Below, one piece after another: positions 29,491 to 37,200 of a stretch of 64,000 nt of DNA; the stretch's first letter is position 1; each line of letters starts with the position of its first letter. A program made the translations under genes and the position numbers. Source of the stretch: Nitrospiraceae bacterium. GTDB taxonomy: Bacteria; Nitrospirota; Nitrospiria; Nitrospirales; Nitrospiraceae. Below the pieces are notes generated by a model. It made no database searches and was not told the DNA's origin. It saw only the letters and a list, made by a program, of their open reading frames with translations. The stretch spans positions 1 through 64,000 of the forward strand of contig CAKKRE010000022.1 of NCBI GenBank assembly GCA_919902505.1, given 5' to 3'.

Positions 29491-30411
29491 CTACCGCTTC
29501 AGTCCCATCCGTTCCAGCGCACCTTTCGACACATCGAACGCGAAGCGCAATTGGACTGCGTAATATTTTTGGACCAAGCCGGACTGGTCCAGTGGCCGGT
29601 CTTCTTCGCGGTAGAAAGCCAGTTCCGTATCCTTCCAGCGGACGGCGATGCCGACGATCCAATCGAGTTCAGAAGGGTTCAGGGTGTTGCTCGCTTCGCG
29701 GTCGGTGAAGAGATTCATGTCTCCGTACAGGACTACCTTGTTCTTGTAGACGTCCAGGTCGGCATGGGCGACGTACCGGAACAACGCGCGGCCCGTATTG
29801 TTGGGGCGGGCGAAGTATTGGCTGTTGTGGAAGAGCCATCCCGCGCCGGCATAGGCCGTGAGATTCTGGTTCGGGAAGGTGCGCCGCCACCAGGTGGAGT
29901 CCTGAATCGCTTGAAACCGGGCTGTCACGAGCGCATCGGCGTAGGCCTGTTTCAGGCCGCGACGGTCCAGCGGGGCATCTCGTTCGTACTGTAGCCGCCA
30001 ATTGAAGCGATCGAGCACGCCGGTGAAGGCAAAGGTGCCGTCCCATTCCGTCAACTTGATCCATCCGTCGGTGCGGTCCGAGAAAAAATTCTGATCGGTG
30101 TAAAACGTGAGGTACTGCTTATAGAGGTCCGTTTCCAAGTGCAGCATGTGGCGCATGCCGACGAGTCCGGTATTGTCAGGCCTGGCGGCGAACGTCGGAT
30201 TCTTTACAAAGGCACCGGTCAACAGATAGCCGCCGAAGAGCGTTTCCTCTTCCTCGCGCGCCTCGTGTTCCGGTTCATCCATCGAAGGGAGCGGGCGTCC
30301 GTACTTTTCCAGCCCGAGCGCCGATTCTGTCCAGGGCATAATTGCCGATAGCAAGCCCATGAAGAACAGCAGCCGGCGCGGGCTAAAGCTGCGGTGTCGC
30401 CGGGCCGTCAT
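29491..30411 (-). CDS. Predicted outer-membrane/exported protein of unknown function
   Basis: ORF with alternating aromatic beta-barrel-like segments (YLTFYTDQNFFSDRTDGWIKLTEWDGTFAFTGVLDRFNWRLQYERD); start MTARRHRSFSPRRLLFF at 30411. Confidence 0.6.
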   Translation of the reverse strand: MTARRHRSFSPRRLLFFMGLLSAIMPWTESALGLEKYGRPLPSMDEPEHEAREEEETLFGGYLLTGAFVKNPTFAARPDNTGLVGMRHMLHLETDLYKQYLTFYTDQNFFSDRTDGWIKLTEWDGTFAFTGVLDRFNWRLQYERDAPLDRRGLKQAYADALVTARFQAIQDSTWWRRTFPNQNLTAYAGAGWLFHNSQYFARPNNTGRALFRYVAHADLDVYKNKVVLYGDMNLFTDREASNTLNPSELDWIVGIAVRWKDTELAFYREEDRPLDQSGLVQKYYAVQLRFAFDVSKGALERMGLKR

Positions 30412-30806
30412 TCCGGGCAATTGGCGAAGATCTCTTCGCAGTCGTTTGAGGCATCGACCGAACTCGGTACGAAACGATACCGCACCTGGTCGACTCGTTG
30501 GTGTTGGATCACGACCGTTGCCCAGCAGCCGTGATGAACGGTAGGACGGCTGCTCTTCGAGGACACCATGGACTCTTCGAGCAGCGGCGCCTCCTGGTAA
30601 TACCGGAGGATGGTGACTACTCCCTCCTCTCGCTCCTGTAGCGGGGCTCCGGCACAGGCCAGCACCTGTGCCCTGCTTTTTCCTTGTAGCGCCTGCTGAT
30701 GAGGATAGCCCTCGGTGATAGGCGGGGTGCTGTGGCAACCGAGCATGATTCCGGCCAGGACGGGGATCAGCATGCCGCGGTGAACACGAATATGAGGTAG
30801 GCGCAT
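30408..30806 (-). CDS. Small lipoprotein
   Basis: Lipobox-like LAGIMLGC; ATGA overlap with downstream gene. Confidence 0.7.
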   Translation of the reverse strand: MRLPHIRVHRGMLIPVLAGIMLGCHSTPPITEGYPHQQALQGKSRAQVLACAGAPLQEREEGVVTILRYYQEAPLLEESMVSSKSSRPTVHHGCWATVVIQHQRVDQVRYRFVPSSVDASNDCEEIFANCPE

Positions 30807-31238
30807 CGTGAGTACTCAGGCTGACCTATCGGGGCCTGTGAGTAGCATACCTGCCTGCTCAAAGCAACCAACCCGGGCTGATTCTCCGATGCCTGCCTTG
30901 TCGTCGAACTAGCTTGCGCTGGGCCACGATGTCGGTCACTGAAGAGGGTCGGCTTCAACCGTCATCGGCGAGCCGGTGCCCCGTGGGGAGGGCAAATTCT
31001 GCCGCGTGAAATTCCTTAATGGCTCGGGCTGTGCTGCGGCGATGAGCGCCTCGCAGGGTGTGCGTCAGGCCTTCGCGCGAAGTGAGGAATCGGCGTCAGG
31101 ATCATGACAGTCGTCATCGTTCTGACTTGCTGGGGCTGCTTCCGCGTCGTGGCGACCCGGTCAACGGTGTCTTGCTGCCCTGTAGCTATCATCTAAGTTA
31201 ATTTTTGTAGGTAACTGCATTTTTTCCATGCGGATGAG

Positions 31239-31266
31239 TTGACAATTATGTCTAATTCCCTAGAAT
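31239..31266 (+). promoter_or_regulatory. Putative sigma70 promoter
   Basis: TTGACA-N16-TAGAAT, about 230 bp upstream of 31497. Confidence 0.5.
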
Positions 31267-31496
31267 AAGCTTCGAACATTGGGTTGTTATGACAGTCGCT
31301 GTGCGCCAACTCTGAGGCCGTGCGTGTCGTTAATCCTGCCCTTGTTAGATCAGCCGACCTCCTCCCGCAGATTTGGAATCGTTCGTGCGCTTGCAAGAGT
31401 CCAGCCTCGCCCGGAGCGAGCTCTGTGAGCGGGCCCACACGTTATTCAATTCGATGCTGTGCAAGACGCAGCACTCACTACGGCGGGAGGGAATGT

Positions 31497-34229
31497 ATGT
31501 CGAAGCACATCGCTGCGCGCAATGAGAGTGTGTCTGTGATCGGCCTGCTTGGCCAGGAGAGCAGCCGACCATCTTCGGTGCCGGACCGGAAGAAAACCAG
31601 CGATGCCTGGTCGCTCTCTGTTGCGGAGCGGCGGGCTTCCCGGCGCCTCGAGACTCGCATCTCGACCGTTCTTCACTTGCAGGATCATACGTGGAACGGT
31701 CGGACGAAAAGCCTCAGTTTAGGCGGGCTTTCGATGGAATTTGCCGAGGACATTCCTGCCATGCTGAACCAGCATATTCTGTTGAGTCTGACTCCCGGGG
31801 CCACGCGGCCCGAAAGTGCCGGAGTTGTGTGCGGGATTCGCGTTTCAGAAAGTGTCCTTGGTTCAGGTCAGACGAAACGAGGGGTGACACTCGCCGTTCA
31901 GTTTGTGCGGTTGAGCCCTGGCGATGAGCAGGTGATAGCCATGTGGATGAGCGAGGGCCGCGCACCGTCGAGCGGCCTGCAGCTTGTCGCCGCATTGGTC
32001 GCCCAAGAGAGTGAGGATGCCCTTATCGACCGCGAGTCCAGGCAGCCGGTTGTGGCTCAGGTCACGCATGCGCGTCTTGCTCGGGTGCCCGAGCGTCCAC
32101 GTCATGAGCGGAGGCGTCAACAGCGGATTACGGTTGGATTGAGCACCGAGGTGAGTCTCAGGCTGAGAGCCGGTGACCGAGTCTTGTCGGGAGCGTTGAC
32201 GACCGACTTGACGTCAAACGGGGCCTGTCTGTGCTTGTCGGCCGAAGAGGATTTGCTGGGTTCAGAATTGGAACTGAGATGGATGTCACCGACTGTCGCC
32301 CAGCGAGTGTCTTCTGTCTCCACGCCGTCTGCCGGCTGTTCCGTGGTGGGCGAAGTGGTATGGACAAGACCGGGAGAGGTCGGCGCTCCTTCCGGCTATC
32401 GGCAGGTTGGGGGGCGGACGGTGTTGGCGGGTGTGCGCTTTCTCCCGGTTGCAAAAGAGGTTGAGGACATCATTGAGCACCTGCTCGGGCAGCAGCAGAG
32501 CGAGGGCGTCGTCGACAGGGCGGAAGGGCCTTCCGTCATCAGTGAGTTCTCGGAGTGTGTCCGCCCGTCCGGTCACCGTATCGCGCTCTGTCACGATCGG
32601 CCTCGAACCGATCTGTCGGCCGACGCACCGATTGTGGTGTTGGCTCCCGGGTATGGGGAGAGCAAACGCGACTATGTGCCGCTGGCCTATTACCTCGCCG
32701 GCAATGGGTTTCATGTCGTGCGCTTCGACAATGTGAATCATGTCGGAGAGAGCGATGGGTTGGTCACACAGTTTCGCCTGGAGGATATGGAGACCGATCT
32801 AGAGACCGTGCTGGACTATGTGGCGGCTCGATGGCCGGGTCGATCCATCGGCCTTGTGGCGACCAGCCTGTCCGGTCGCGTCGCGCTCAAGGTCGCGGGG
32901 CGAGTCCCTCACCTGGGGCTGCTGGCGTTGATCAATGGAATCATGGATGTTCAGCATACGTTGCAGGCCGTCCATCAAGAGGATCTGATCGGCGAACATC
33001 TGGCCGGTGTGCGCAAAGGGGTGGTCAACATTCTCGGCCTGACCATCGATGCGGATCGTTGGCTGGAGCATGCTGTTCAGGGAGGCTATGCCGATCTGAG
33101 CACCACTCAGCAGGACGCCGAGCACCTCCATGCTCCCGTCGTGCTGTTTCATGCCGAGCAGGACGCGTGGGTCGATCCGGCCTCCATCGAGGCAGTCGGC
33201 GCGGCGATGGGTGCGAATCTCCGCCACTCCTATGTGGTGCCGGGCGCGTTGCATCGACTTCAAGAGAGCCCCCGGAAAGCCCGCACGGTCTATCGCCAAA
33301 TTGCTCTCTGCTGCCAGCAGGAGTTGTGGCCGACACGGTCGATGGCGCGGATGGTCGAACCGTCGCATCGGGAAATCGGCGTGCAGAACCGCGCAGAACG
33401 CGAACGTAGCAAGAAGCGTCGGCCGATGGGCAAGTCGGATCATGTGGCGTTCTGGCAGGAGTACTTACAGAATTTCCAGACGATCCCGAACGTGGCCGAT
33501 TTTTGGCGGCTTATGGATCATGTCTATCGCCTGATGGGCGATTGCCATCATGGGGAGCGGATTCTGGATGCCGGGTGCGGCAATGGTAACCTCGGGGTGT
33601 TCTTGCAGCTCAATCAGGCGTTTCGGCAGCGCTATGCCAGGCGCGGAGATTTTCGCTCGCCTGACTATGTCGGGGTGGATTTTGTCCCGACGGCTCTGGC
33701 GCAGGCCATGACCAACTTCGAGCAGGTGGGGGCGGCGCTACAAGGGCAGTTTTATGAGGGGCTGCGAGCCTATGTGCCGATGTCGATGCGGGTCTGCCGG
33801 GCCGACCTGGAGTCTCCGCTGCCGTTTCCCGATCATTCCTTCGACCGGGTCGTGTGCAATCTTGTGATCGGGTACGTGCGCGACCCGCTCTTCACCCTCC
33901 GGGAATATCTGCGCGTGTTGGCTCCCAATGGACGGTTGGTGATTTCCAACCTGAAGCCGTATGCCGATCTCTCGGCGATTTATCGCAGCTTCGTTGAGAC
34001 GGCTCAGACGCCGGATCAAATCGAAGAAGGGCGTCGCCTCCTGGACAATTCTGGTAGAATCAAAGAGCGGGAAGGCGAAGGCATTTTTCATTTCCATTAC
34101 CAGGCGGAACTGGAAAGTTTGTTGCGCGCCGCCGGCGTCACGCATCCGCGGGTCTATTCCACGTTCGGAAACCAAGCGCTCATTGCCGTGGCCGATAAGG
34201 GCCTGGCGAATCTCACAGTGGCGGTATGA
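31497..34229 (+). CDS. Fusion protein: PilZ-PilZ / LuxD-like alpha/beta hydrolase (acyltransferase) / SAM methyltransferase
   Basis: PilZ-like RRASRR..SLSLGG and RRRQQR..DLTSNG; hydrolase NGFHVVRFDNVNHVGESDG...GLVATSLSGRVAL...EQDAWVDP...LHRLQE; methyltransferase ILDAGCGNGNLGVFL. Confidence 0.88.
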   Translation: MSKHIAARNESVSVIGLLGQESSRPSSVPDRKKTSDAWSLSVAERRASRRLETRISTVLHLQDHTWNGRTKSLSLGGLSMEFAEDIPAMLNQHILLSLTPGATRPESAGVVCGIRVSESVLGSGQTKRGVTLAVQFVRLSPGDEQVIAMWMSEGRAPSSGLQLVAALVAQESEDALIDRESRQPVVAQVTHARLARVPERPRHERRRQQRITVGLSTEVSLRLRAGDRVLSGALTTDLTSNGACLCLSAEEDLLGSELELRWMSPTVAQRVSSVSTPSAGCSVVGEVVWTRPGEVGAPSGYRQVGGRTVLAGVRFLPVAKEVEDIIEHLLGQQQSEGVVDRAEGPSVISEFSECVRPSGHRIALCHDRPRTDLSADAPIVVLAPGYGESKRDYVPLAYYLAGNGFHVVRFDNVNHVGESDGLVTQFRLEDMETDLETVLDYVAARWPGRSIGLVATSLSGRVALKVAGRVPHLGLLALINGIMDVQHTLQAVHQEDLIGEHLAGVRKGVVNILGLTIDADRWLEHAVQGGYADLSTTQQDAEHLHAPVVLFHAEQDAWVDPASIEAVGAAMGANLRHSYVVPGALHRLQESPRKARTVYRQIALCCQQELWPTRSMARMVEPSHREIGVQNRAERERSKKRRPMGKSDHVAFWQEYLQNFQTIPNVADFWRLMDHVYRLMGDCHHGERILDAGCGNGNLGVFLQLNQAFRQRYARRGDFRSPDYVGVDFVPTALAQAMTNFEQVGAALQGQFYEGLRAYVPMSMRVCRADLESPLPFPDHSFDRVVCNLVIGYVRDPLFTLREYLRVLAPNGRLVISNLKPYADLSAIYRSFVETAQTPDQIEEGRRLLDNSGRIKEREGEGIFHFHYQAELESLLRAAGVTHPRVYSTFGNQALIAVADKGLANLTVAV

Positions 34230-34262
34230 TGACATGGCCTCGGCTCTACCAGAGTACCTGAG

Positions 34263-37200
34263 ATGAAAGTGCTCGCGTTCAGCGCGCTGGTGAATGCGTT
34301 GGCTGCGACAGGGCTCGGAATGTTCGTCTACTTCCGGGATCCTGCCGCTGCACGCAACCGGATCTACGGGCTGTACTGTCTGAGCATCGCCTTTTGGAGC
34401 GTCTTCTACTGCGGCTGGCAACTCACGGAATCCAAAGACCTCGCGCTGAGTCTGCTGCGCTTGGTGATGGCCGGCGCGTCCCTCATCCCGATTCTGTATT
34501 TTCACCACACTGTCACATTTCTTGACATTACGGCGCGCCACGCCAAAGCCCTGAAGATCGGCTATGGTCTGGCGGCACTGTTTCTGCTGGCCGATACGAC
34601 GCCCTGGTTCGTGGCAGGGGTGCACCCGGCGATGTCGTTCTCTTTTTGGCCGGTTCCCGGCCTCTTCTTCCATCCCTTCCTGCTGTATTTTCTCTGGTAT
34701 GTCGTCTACGCGACCTCGCTCGTCGGGGTCGCCCTTCGGGATGCGAATGGCATCCGGCGCCATCAATATGCGTACATGCTGGTCGCCAGCATCATCGGGT
34801 ATGCGGGCGGGGCTACGAATTTCCCTCTCTGGTATGGCGTGCCGCTGTTGCCCTACGGCACGGTGCTCATCACGATGTATACGGCTCTGATGGCCTACAC
34901 GATCGTTCGGTACCGCCTGATGAATATCAGTGTCGTACTGAACAAGGGGCTCGGCTATGCCATCGTGCTGGCGATTATTGTCGTGGCAACGTCCATCGGC
35001 GCGGTGCTCAGTAATCGCGCGACCGGGCATTCCACGCCACCGTTGTTGGCTGGAACGCTGTTCCTGATATGTGCGCTCTGGGTGCTCAGCAACAATCCCC
35101 GTTCCACGTCGAATACGATCTTCAGCGCCGTGTGCGGGGCTGCCTGCCTCTGGTTATTCGGCTGTTTCATGCTGTTCTCCGCGTCACGCGAGGATGAGGC
35201 GCTCTTTTGGGTGCAGGTGATTTACACCGGAGTGGTCTTTTTGCCCGCGCTGACCTATCACTTTGCGCAGAGTCTCTCCGGCGGGGCTGCGCATGATCGC
35301 CTGATTGTGTGGAACTATGCCGTCGGCGCGCTTTTTTGGAGCCTGTTGTTCACGCCGTATCTGGTAGATGGCCAGTATGTCTATTATTGGGGCCGATATC
35401 CTAAGGCTGGGGTGCTCCATCCCTGGCTGGTGGCATACGTGGTGGCGGGCGGGGGGGTGACGGTCTATCGGCTGTATCAGGGGTATCGGCTCCACCTCAG
35501 TTCATCCCCGCTGCTCGGCGCTCAGCTGAAATACACGGTTGTGGCCCTCGCGCTGGGATTCCTTGCCTCTCTCGATTTCCTCCAGAATTATGGCGTGGGA
35601 TTCTATCCGGTCGGGTACTTACTGGCCGGCCTCTCGGTCACCGTCGTCGCCTATGCCATCGCTCGATACGAGTTGATGGATGTGTCGTTCGTCCCGAGTC
35701 GGCCGAAGGTGATGTTGTCGATCAAGTTGATGGGCCTGATTCCGGCCTACATGATGATCTTGCTCGTCATCCGGATCTTTACCGGGACGTTCCATTATCT
35801 TCTGGCCGGGGTGCTGTTCGGTTTATTTGTGATCGTGTCGAGCGGCTTGGCGAACCTTCAGAAGGGGGTCGAGCGGGCGATCGGGCAGACGCTCTTTCGA
35901 GAGCGCTACGATGCCTACGATACGTTGGTGCAGTTTTCGAAGTCTCTTGTGGCGATCCTTGAACTGAAATCCCTCACAAAAGAAATTGTGCAAACGCTCG
36001 CGCGTGTGATGAACATTAAAACGGCCTCCGTCTATGTTCTCGATAAGGAACAAGGGATCTACAGCTTGACCGCTTCCTACGGGTTCGTGACGCGTGAGGC
36101 CGTCGTGCCTCCGATTAAGATGGAGGGAGAATTTCCCAAGACCTTGTTGCGAACAGAGACCGCCCTTGTCAGGGAGGAAATCGAATACGACAAGGCCGAT
36201 ACGGAACATCTGCGCTTGCTCGACACCTTGAAAGCGTTGGAGTCCGAGGTCTGTATTCAGCTGATCAGCAAGGACCGGCTGGTAGGGTTTTGTAACTTAG
36301 GACGCCGGGCCAATCATGGCATGTATTCGACCGAAGAGTTGGCCCTTCTCAAGACCCTCGCGCAGCATGCGGCGATCGCGATCGACAATGCGCTCTTGTA
36401 TGAGGACCTCCGTCGGTCCCAGTTGTTGATGCGCCGTACCGACCGGTTGCGATCGCTTGAAACCATGGCCGGTGGGTTTGCCCATGAGATTCGAAACCCG
36501 TTGACCTCCATCAAGACGTTCGTTCAGTTGGCCCCCGAACGCCGTGACGATGTGGAGTTTATGGAGCAGTTCAGCCAGGTCGTGTGTGAAGACGTTGAGC
36601 GGATCGAGCGGTTGGTGCATGAAATTCTCGATTACGCGCGCTATATGACGCCGAAGCTTACTCAGGAAAGCTTGAATGATGTGGTGTCTTCCTGCCTCTA
36701 CTTTATCGAGGTGAAGGCGAGCAGCAAGGCCATCACGATTCAGAAGGAACTGGCGAGCGATCTGCCCTACGTGAAACTGGATCGGCAGCAGATCAAGCAG
36801 GTCTTGTTGAACTTGTTTATCAACGCGATGGAAGCCATCGGCGGTGACCAGGGCGGCCGCCTTTCCGTTCGCACTCGCAAACTTGTCAAGCCGGTGAATG
36901 AGCCATGGGTTCAGATCGAAGTCGAGGATAGTGGGCCGGGAATCGACCCCCAGGATCTAGACCATATCTTCGATCCGTTCTATACCACCAAGCACGAGAG
37001 CGGGGAGCGTGAGGGAACGGGGCTCGGCTTGACCATTGCGCACCAGATCGTTCAGGAGCATGGGGGCTATGTGGAGGTAGCCAGTGAGGTGGGCCATGGT
37101 ACGAGATTCATGGTCAATCTTCCCGTGAATCCACCTATCGCGGAGTGGCAGGCTGCGCAGCCTGCCTTCGATGACGGAAGAACGCTGGCCGGAGCGTATC

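Follow-up and report, generated by a model that had tools for sequence, protein, structure and literature searches.

Analysis of the window, the whole 64,000-nucleotide stretch taken from a Nitrospiraceae genome, revealed a gene pair that, judged by its domains and their evolution, looks like an unrecognized chemical-signaling system and may be a class of its own. The first gene encodes a putative lipid-signal synthase fusing two PilZ domains, a LuxD-like hydrolase and a methyltransferase, and a histidine kinase with two 7TM domains starts 33 bp downstream (Table 1). Across related genomes, the enzyme is exchanged for unrelated lipid enzymes, and the first 7TM domain of the kinase is exchanged along with it. 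We consider it probable that the pair is a signal-synthase/receptor cassette, in which a lipid ligand from the synthase is read by the cognate 7TM kinase, with probable gating by c-di-GMP. The initial annotation of this DNA had covered the enzyme gene; it lacked the adjoining kinase as probable receptor, the enzyme swapping and a REC-PAS-PilZ paralogue with a dead hydrolase.

Table 1. Features of the synthase-kinase region of the window and enzymes occupying the slot beside the 7TM kinase at other loci
Feature	Position in window, or loci	Strand	Basis or remark
Synthase gene, PilZ-PilZ-LuxD-like hydrolase-methyltransferase	31497..34229	+	910 aa plus stop
PilZ domain 1, residues 44-149	31626..31943	+	Pfam PF07238; AF2; Foldseek
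PilZ domain 2, about residues 200-335	32094..32501	+	Second PilZ stretch in Pfam; invariant motif residues
LuxD-type alpha/beta hydrolase, residues 360-604	32574..33308	+	PF02273 88.6 bits; 1THT E 1.8e-17
Codon of catalytic Ser457	32865..32867	+	On LuxD Ser114; invariant among orthologues
Codon of catalytic Asp556	33162..33164	+	On LuxD Asp211
Codon of catalytic His586	33252..33254	+	On LuxD His241
Class I SAM methyltransferase, residues 684-890, motif I ILDAGCGNGN	33546..34166	+	PF13847/PF08241; motif I conserved
7TM-7TM-GAF-HisKA-HATPase histidine kinase, 1004 aa	34263..37277	+	Pfam PF16927 x2, GAF, HisKA, HATPase_c
First 7TM domain, proposed ligand receptor, co-swaps with enzyme	34290..34928	+	PF16927; co-swap analysis
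Second 7TM domain, does not swap	35043..35684	+	PF16927; 72% identical to G042
DNA with no match at the G042 locus (L164), which is syntenic apart from this block	30742..34875	+	blastn matches stop at 30741, restart at 34876
Slot: PilZ-KAS III	L052, L057, L098, L099
Slot: UndA-like oxidase, PilZ-fused or stand-alone	L164, L168, L187, L189, L190		UndA PDB 6p5q E 4.3e-28
Slot: acyl-ACP reductase	L166, L179, L184, L185		6jzu E 1.3e-19
Slot: PilZ-HMG-CoA reductase	L165		370 bits
Slot: PilZ-methyltransferase	L175, L178
Slot: FabF-type KAS + ACP operon with LuxD-methyltransferase	L102, L103
Slot: FabF-type KAS + ACP operon with thioester reductase	L180, L183; L181		L181 without ACP in view
Slot: KAS + ACP operon with aldehyde dehydrogenase	L182; L176		L176 without KAS/ACP in view

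Domains and catalytic residues of the synthase

Domain content was assessed with Pfam profiles, and the two PilZ domains, the LuxD-like hydrolase and the methyltransferase called in the initial annotation were all recovered over cut-off; the ORF it reported stands as well, its 911 aa being 910 plus the stop. PilZ (PF07238, cut-off 22.5 bits) matched two stretches at 61 bits, and Methyltransf_31 and Methyltransf_11 matched the methyltransferase segment at 54 and 52 bits. For the hydrolase segment, the Acyl_transf_2/LuxD profile (PF02273, cut-off 20.3 bits) scored 88.6 bits, above Hydrolase_4 at 62.8 bits, bearing out the proposed likeness to LuxD rather than to a generic hydrolase. Alignment to the V. 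harveyi LuxD thioesterase (PDB 1THT) placed Ser457, Asp556 and His586 on LuxD Ser114, Asp211 and His241, which we take, from known biochemistry, to be the catalytic residues; by this alignment, the triad is intact. Assignment as LuxD proper was rejected: the NCBIfam LuxD equivalog gave 89 bits where its cut-off demands 420, and a profile search of this genome, agreeing with the earlier statement that no luxCE is nearby, returned no match for LuxE (PF04443) and a weak, below-cut-off match for LuxC (PF05893).

More than 20 Nitrospira genomes carry collinear, full-length orthologues with 66-96% identity; the one in N. defluvii, a cultured species, shares 92% (L002). Because the domain order is kept full-length in these same-genus genomes, the ORF is neither a chance nor a frameshift joint, ruling out the artefactual fusion of separate genes that had been raised as a concern. 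In L012:7209-10072 and L037 (Nitrospira MAG S0bin1_add/G010), the synthase is found in two ORFs of 488 and 465 aa, reflecting a frameshift or assembly error. Upstream of the synthase in the window, a divergently oriented, conserved 415-aa ORF (29491-30738, minus strand) is without any Pfam match.

The second PilZ domain had been described as close to the c-di-GMP-binding pattern. It indeed carries R206xxxR210, followed by D237xTxxG242 in place of DxSxxG; the canonical motif, with Ser for Thr, is present in several orthologues, and R206, R210, D237 and G242 are invariant in 12 of them. PilZ1 keeps RxxxR and has Ser in place of the D/N of (D/N)xSxxG (SLSLGG). AF2 prediction of the full-length synthase, based on a shallow alignment of 12 closely related rows, reached a mean pLDDT of 40.7 and, apart from PilZ1 and an unspecific alpha/beta-hydrolase match, yielded nothing usable. 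The expected PilZ fold was recovered for PilZ1 (block 50-170, mostly pLDDT 60-85; Foldseek match to the YcgR PilZ 5y6g, prob 1.00), and the PilZ2 model was poor (43.6).

From these motifs, c-di-GMP gating of the synthase is plausible, most likely via PilZ2. Versions of the enzyme built on KAS III or HMG-CoA reductase have canonical PilZ motifs, as read from their sequences. In several relatives, PilZ is degenerate or absent, and some of these keep the enzyme-kinase pair; c-di-GMP would therefore be a common rather than a constant input, and the gating initially proposed would not be universal. At two loci (L035 and L036; G001 and G007), residues 246-340 are unmatched in the synthase and PilZ2 has a damaged motif, so that c-di-GMP control may be lost there.

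The adjoining 7TM kinase and the enzyme slot

The kinase is the sole HisKA_7TM (PF16927) protein in this genome, and a synthase gene adjoining a membrane sensor kinase is the arrangement of a quorum-sensing pair. Among same-genus genomes, synthase and kinase are either both present or both absent (absent from G002, G017 and G020), the exception being G010, in which the contig stops next to the synthase. In some 16 genera, intact-triad loci have the 7TM kinase after the synthase; in one exception (G078), an intact synthase and its kinase lie on separate contigs. Outside the genus, the same kinase type follows the synthase gene in families f1, f2 and f3 and in other classes. In G206, both are joined in one 1641-aa ORF (L108:8383-13308, plus strand), which is either a true fusion or owed to the loss of a stop codon in a MAG.

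These observations bear on the reading favored in the initial annotation, namely a stand-alone, c-di-GMP-gated lipid enzyme next to which a kinase would be incidental. The fusion of PilZ to enzyme domains suits such a reading, but the kinase is conserved next door, tracks the presence and absence of the gene, is joined to it in G206 and, as described below, co-swaps its first 7TM domain with the enzyme, leaving a stand-alone enzyme very unlikely. The alternative role named there, that of a membrane modifier, is possible.

This genome also holds a second copy (L044, contig C23), a 1428-aa REC-PAS-PilZ-PilZ-hydrolase-methyltransferase protein in which Asp takes the place of Ser457 and conservation of the triad is also lost around its Asp and His. 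Next come genes for a TM-less GAF kinase and for regulators of the NtrC and REC-HD-GYP types, and recN adjoins. Across the order, nucleophile-less paralogues (mostly Ser to Asp) are accompanied by a TM-less kinase, by no kinase or by a PilZ-KAS III gene that adjoins the 7TM kinase. Loss of the nucleophile is confined to one clade of the tree and happened essentially once; we therefore kept the correlation between an intact triad and a 7TM kinase, but down-weighted it because it reflects few events. Methyltransferase motif I is often degraded, too, at the dead-triad loci (L044, L047, L059, L113 and others), which are still conserved by recN with the TM-less kinase and the two regulators.

Several relatives encode REC-PAS ahead of PilZ in the synthase, as well as NtrC-type and REC-HD-GYP regulators after the kinase. 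The HD-GYP motifs are intact in several REC-HD-GYP regulators; a pattern search did not find them in others, among these, in part, the regulators of this genome. By family, the REC-HD-GYP regulator would lower c-di-GMP.

Throughout Nitrospirota, the slot beside the orthologous kinase is occupied by unrelated lipid enzymes, often fused to PilZ (Table 1). Their genes either lie between the synthase site and the 7TM kinase or take the place of the synthase. Slot enzymes were labeled by family profiles, many of the genomes being MAGs, and by family annotation they handle fatty-acyl or isoprenoid substrates. KAS and ACP operons continue with the 7TM kinase and, in most cases, with a second kinase plus a regulator of the REC-HD-GYP or REC-kinase type. 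More distant hydrolase-methyltransferase proteins (L104, L105) are located between an acyl-CoA dehydrogenase (before) and another membrane kinase (after). The FabF-like KAS in one of the operons (L103:10927-12177, minus strand; G459) keeps its active-site Cys, has SAYGNST versus NAHGTST at the first catalytic His motif and is perhaps not an ordinary condensing enzyme.

An esterase-type hydrolase and a SAM methyltransferase in a single polypeptide beside a sensor kinase would also fit CheB/CheR-like protein modification, in which the two domains remove and add methyl groups on the adjoining kinase. Yet the hydrolase scores as a LuxD/acyltransferase, KAS and ACP adjoin the LuxD-methyltransferase in L102 and L103, and KAS III, UndA, acyl-ACP reductase and HMG-CoA reductase fill the same slot. 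We regard this explanation as highly improbable, because none of these swapped enzymes modifies a protein.

Joint exchange of the enzyme and the first 7TM domain

The exchange is visible in G042, where the locus is syntenic with the window on both flanks and contains a PilZ-UndA type gene and another 7TM domain instead. The block without DNA match comprises the enzyme gene and kinase residues 1-204, with similarity restarting inside the kinase gene at residue 205. At the protein level, the two kinases share 16-36% identity per 25-residue block over residues 1-200, then 60% and 92%; their first 7TM domains are 40% and their second 72% identical. The same break separates G032 (LuxD-methyltransferase) from G082 (KAS III), with 92% identity for the kinase and 90% for GAF, versus 37% for the first 7TM. 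One genome (G065) contains both a LuxD-methyltransferase and an UndA system, the kinases of which are 90% and the first 7TM domains 30% identical. Conversely, the UndA-linked first 7TM domains of G042 and G065 are 60% alike, and their kinases 68%. Overall, three genus-level comparisons gave 88-92% identity for the kinase versus 30-40% for the first 7TM, and two independent swaps showed a sharp break near residue 205-225 of the kinase.

Complementarily, we evaluated 41 kinases jointly. Given kinase identity, same-enzyme pairs were 17.5 points more identical in their first 7TM domain, a difference reached in 0 of 2000 label shuffles, the pairs not being independent; the GAF control showed an effect of 0.0 points (951 of 2000 shuffles). 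In the same vein, KAS III, UndA and LuxD-methyltransferase kinases group by enzyme on the first-7TM tree, whereas the kinase domain sorts by genus, and 8 enzyme changes are needed on the former versus 17 on the kinase tree. Although the kinase pairs are not independent, at least three genus-level swaps are separate. By sequence, the sensor domain tracks the synthase, as sensor specificity would in a quorum-sensing pair. In G062, a second 7TM kinase (L186:4073-6316, minus strand) has a first 7TM domain of the LuxD-methyltransferase type and no adjoining enzyme, making it a possible orphan receptor.

Matching of enzyme and sensor would also fit the main rival explanation, cell-autonomous sensing, in which the enzyme alters a membrane or storage lipid or consumes a metabolite, and the 7TM domain reads the product in the same cell as feedback, with no message passing between cells. 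The co-swap shows that enzyme and 7TM match, not that a product leaves the cell; moreover, PilZ and HD-GYP link the system to internal c-di-GMP, and the slot enzymes are intracellular types. On the other hand, the products of the swapped enzymes are chemically unlike and mostly small lipids (alkene, aldehyde, keto-acyl, methylated acyl, mevalonate); exchangeable signals account for this variety better than a single homeostatic lipid of the membrane would, and the locus layout resembles the Phc, Rpf and Cqs synthase-receptor loci. Taken together, we consider purely cell-autonomous sensing unlikely. For the signaling reading, in turn, the HMG-CoA reductase in the slot fits a diffusible lipid less directly.

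Proposed circuit and relation to known systems

In the signal-synthase/receptor cassette that we favor, the LuxD-type domain would take an acyl group from acyl-ACP, by hydrolysis or by transfer via Ser457, and the fused methyltransferase would methylate the acyl product to yield a small lipid, which may be the methyl ester or a methoxylated form of a fatty acid. Acyl release from ACP followed by methylation is suggested by the domains and the KAS-ACP operons; naming the exact product is guesswork. The tandem PilZ domains, most likely PilZ2, would tie the synthase to cellular c-di-GMP. Binding of the lipid to the first 7TM domain of the adjoining kinase would alter phosphorylation of the NtrC-type and REC-HD-GYP regulators, both encoded at the second locus (contig C23) in this genome, beside the dead-hydrolase paralogue. 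As REC-HD-GYP proteins are of the c-di-GMP phosphodiesterase type, the loop would feed back on c-di-GMP. The second 7TM domain and GAF could sense other things. Computation establishes the domains, the triad, the gene adjacency, the swapping of the enzyme and of the first 7TM, the lipid enzymes and ACP in the slot and the regulators of relatives; substrate, product, export, c-di-GMP binding and phosphotransfer partners are parts of the circuit that we infer. The lipid signal surmised in the initial annotation gains support from the adjoining 7TM kinase and the swapped lipid enzymes.

More broadly, we lean toward an unrecognized signaling class that is widespread in Nitrospirota: c-di-GMP-gated synthase and 7TM sensor would form one exchangeable cassette before a constant kinase chassis, lineages would change their signal by swapping both, and output would run via an HD-GYP phosphodiesterase-type regulator. 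Nitrospira are the dominant nitrite oxidizers and include comammox organisms. If true, such a conserved lipid-signal circuit, with its link to c-di-GMP, would matter for biofilms, for the formation of flocs and for how nitrification is controlled. Since the natural swaps reveal matched enzyme-receptor pairs, ligands of HisKA_7TM kinases become directly testable.

The quorum sensing described for Nitrospira is exclusively AHL-based; a survey of Nitrospirales, restricted to AHLs, reported LuxR homologues and no LuxI in many lineage I genomes (PMC12342949). In this genome, the LuxI profile (Autoind_synth, PF00765) had no match, its controls being silent too. Our literature search found no published description of PilZ + LuxD + methyltransferase, of a PilZ + methyltransferase architecture or of PilZ + quorum sensing + ACP + kinase, and the HisKA_7TM kinases that we found in the literature were named for archaeal (and eukaryotic) kinases only.

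Among known systems, Phc of Ralstonia uses the SAM methyltransferase PhcB to produce a fatty-acid methyl ester signal that is sensed by the membrane histidine kinase PhcS (PMC8578825). The likeness would lie in a methyltransferase-made lipid signal, proposed for the window, read by a membrane histidine kinase. Unlike in Phc, the window methyltransferase shares its polypeptide with a LuxD-type hydrolase and PilZ, the kinase is 7TM-7TM-GAF, and the enzyme class swaps together with the first 7TM. RpfF, the synthase of the Rpf/DSF system in Xanthomonas, is of the crotonase type. DSF binds RpfC (PMC5391125), and RpfG is an HD-GYP protein (PMC3609779). A fatty-acid signal (again, proposed for the window), a membrane histidine kinase and a REC-HD-GYP regulator would be shared, whereas window-type synthases are LuxD-methyltransferases and others, fused to PilZ, and relatives add an NtrC-type regulator. 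CqsA/CqsS of Vibrio pairs a lipid-derived signal synthase with a membrane histidine kinase receptor of matched specificity (PMC3285556). CqsA/CqsS systems differ in chain length within one enzyme class, whereas here the exchanged block takes in entire enzyme classes along with the first 7TM, and PilZ domains are present.

V. harveyi LuxD shares with the hydrolase its fold, the Ser/Asp/His triad and a PF02273 match over cut-off; the synthase differs in its sub-cut-off equivalog score, its genome's lack of above-cut-off LuxC and LuxE matches and its fusion to PilZ and a methyltransferase. PrsK and PrsR (XrtA/PEP-CTERM) are among the nearest curated models for kinase and regulators. Membership was rejected, as both fall under the curated cut-offs (PrsK, 144 bits for the window kinase versus 300; PrsR, 417-440 bits versus 502.6 for the regulators encoded at the second locus and by a relative). 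To our knowledge, no known system joins PilZ-fused synthases with block exchange of enzyme class and sensor domain. Lipid signals read by membrane kinases of matched specificity are already known from Phc, Rpf and Cqs; the interchangeable synthases and the probable c-di-GMP gating look like the new elements.
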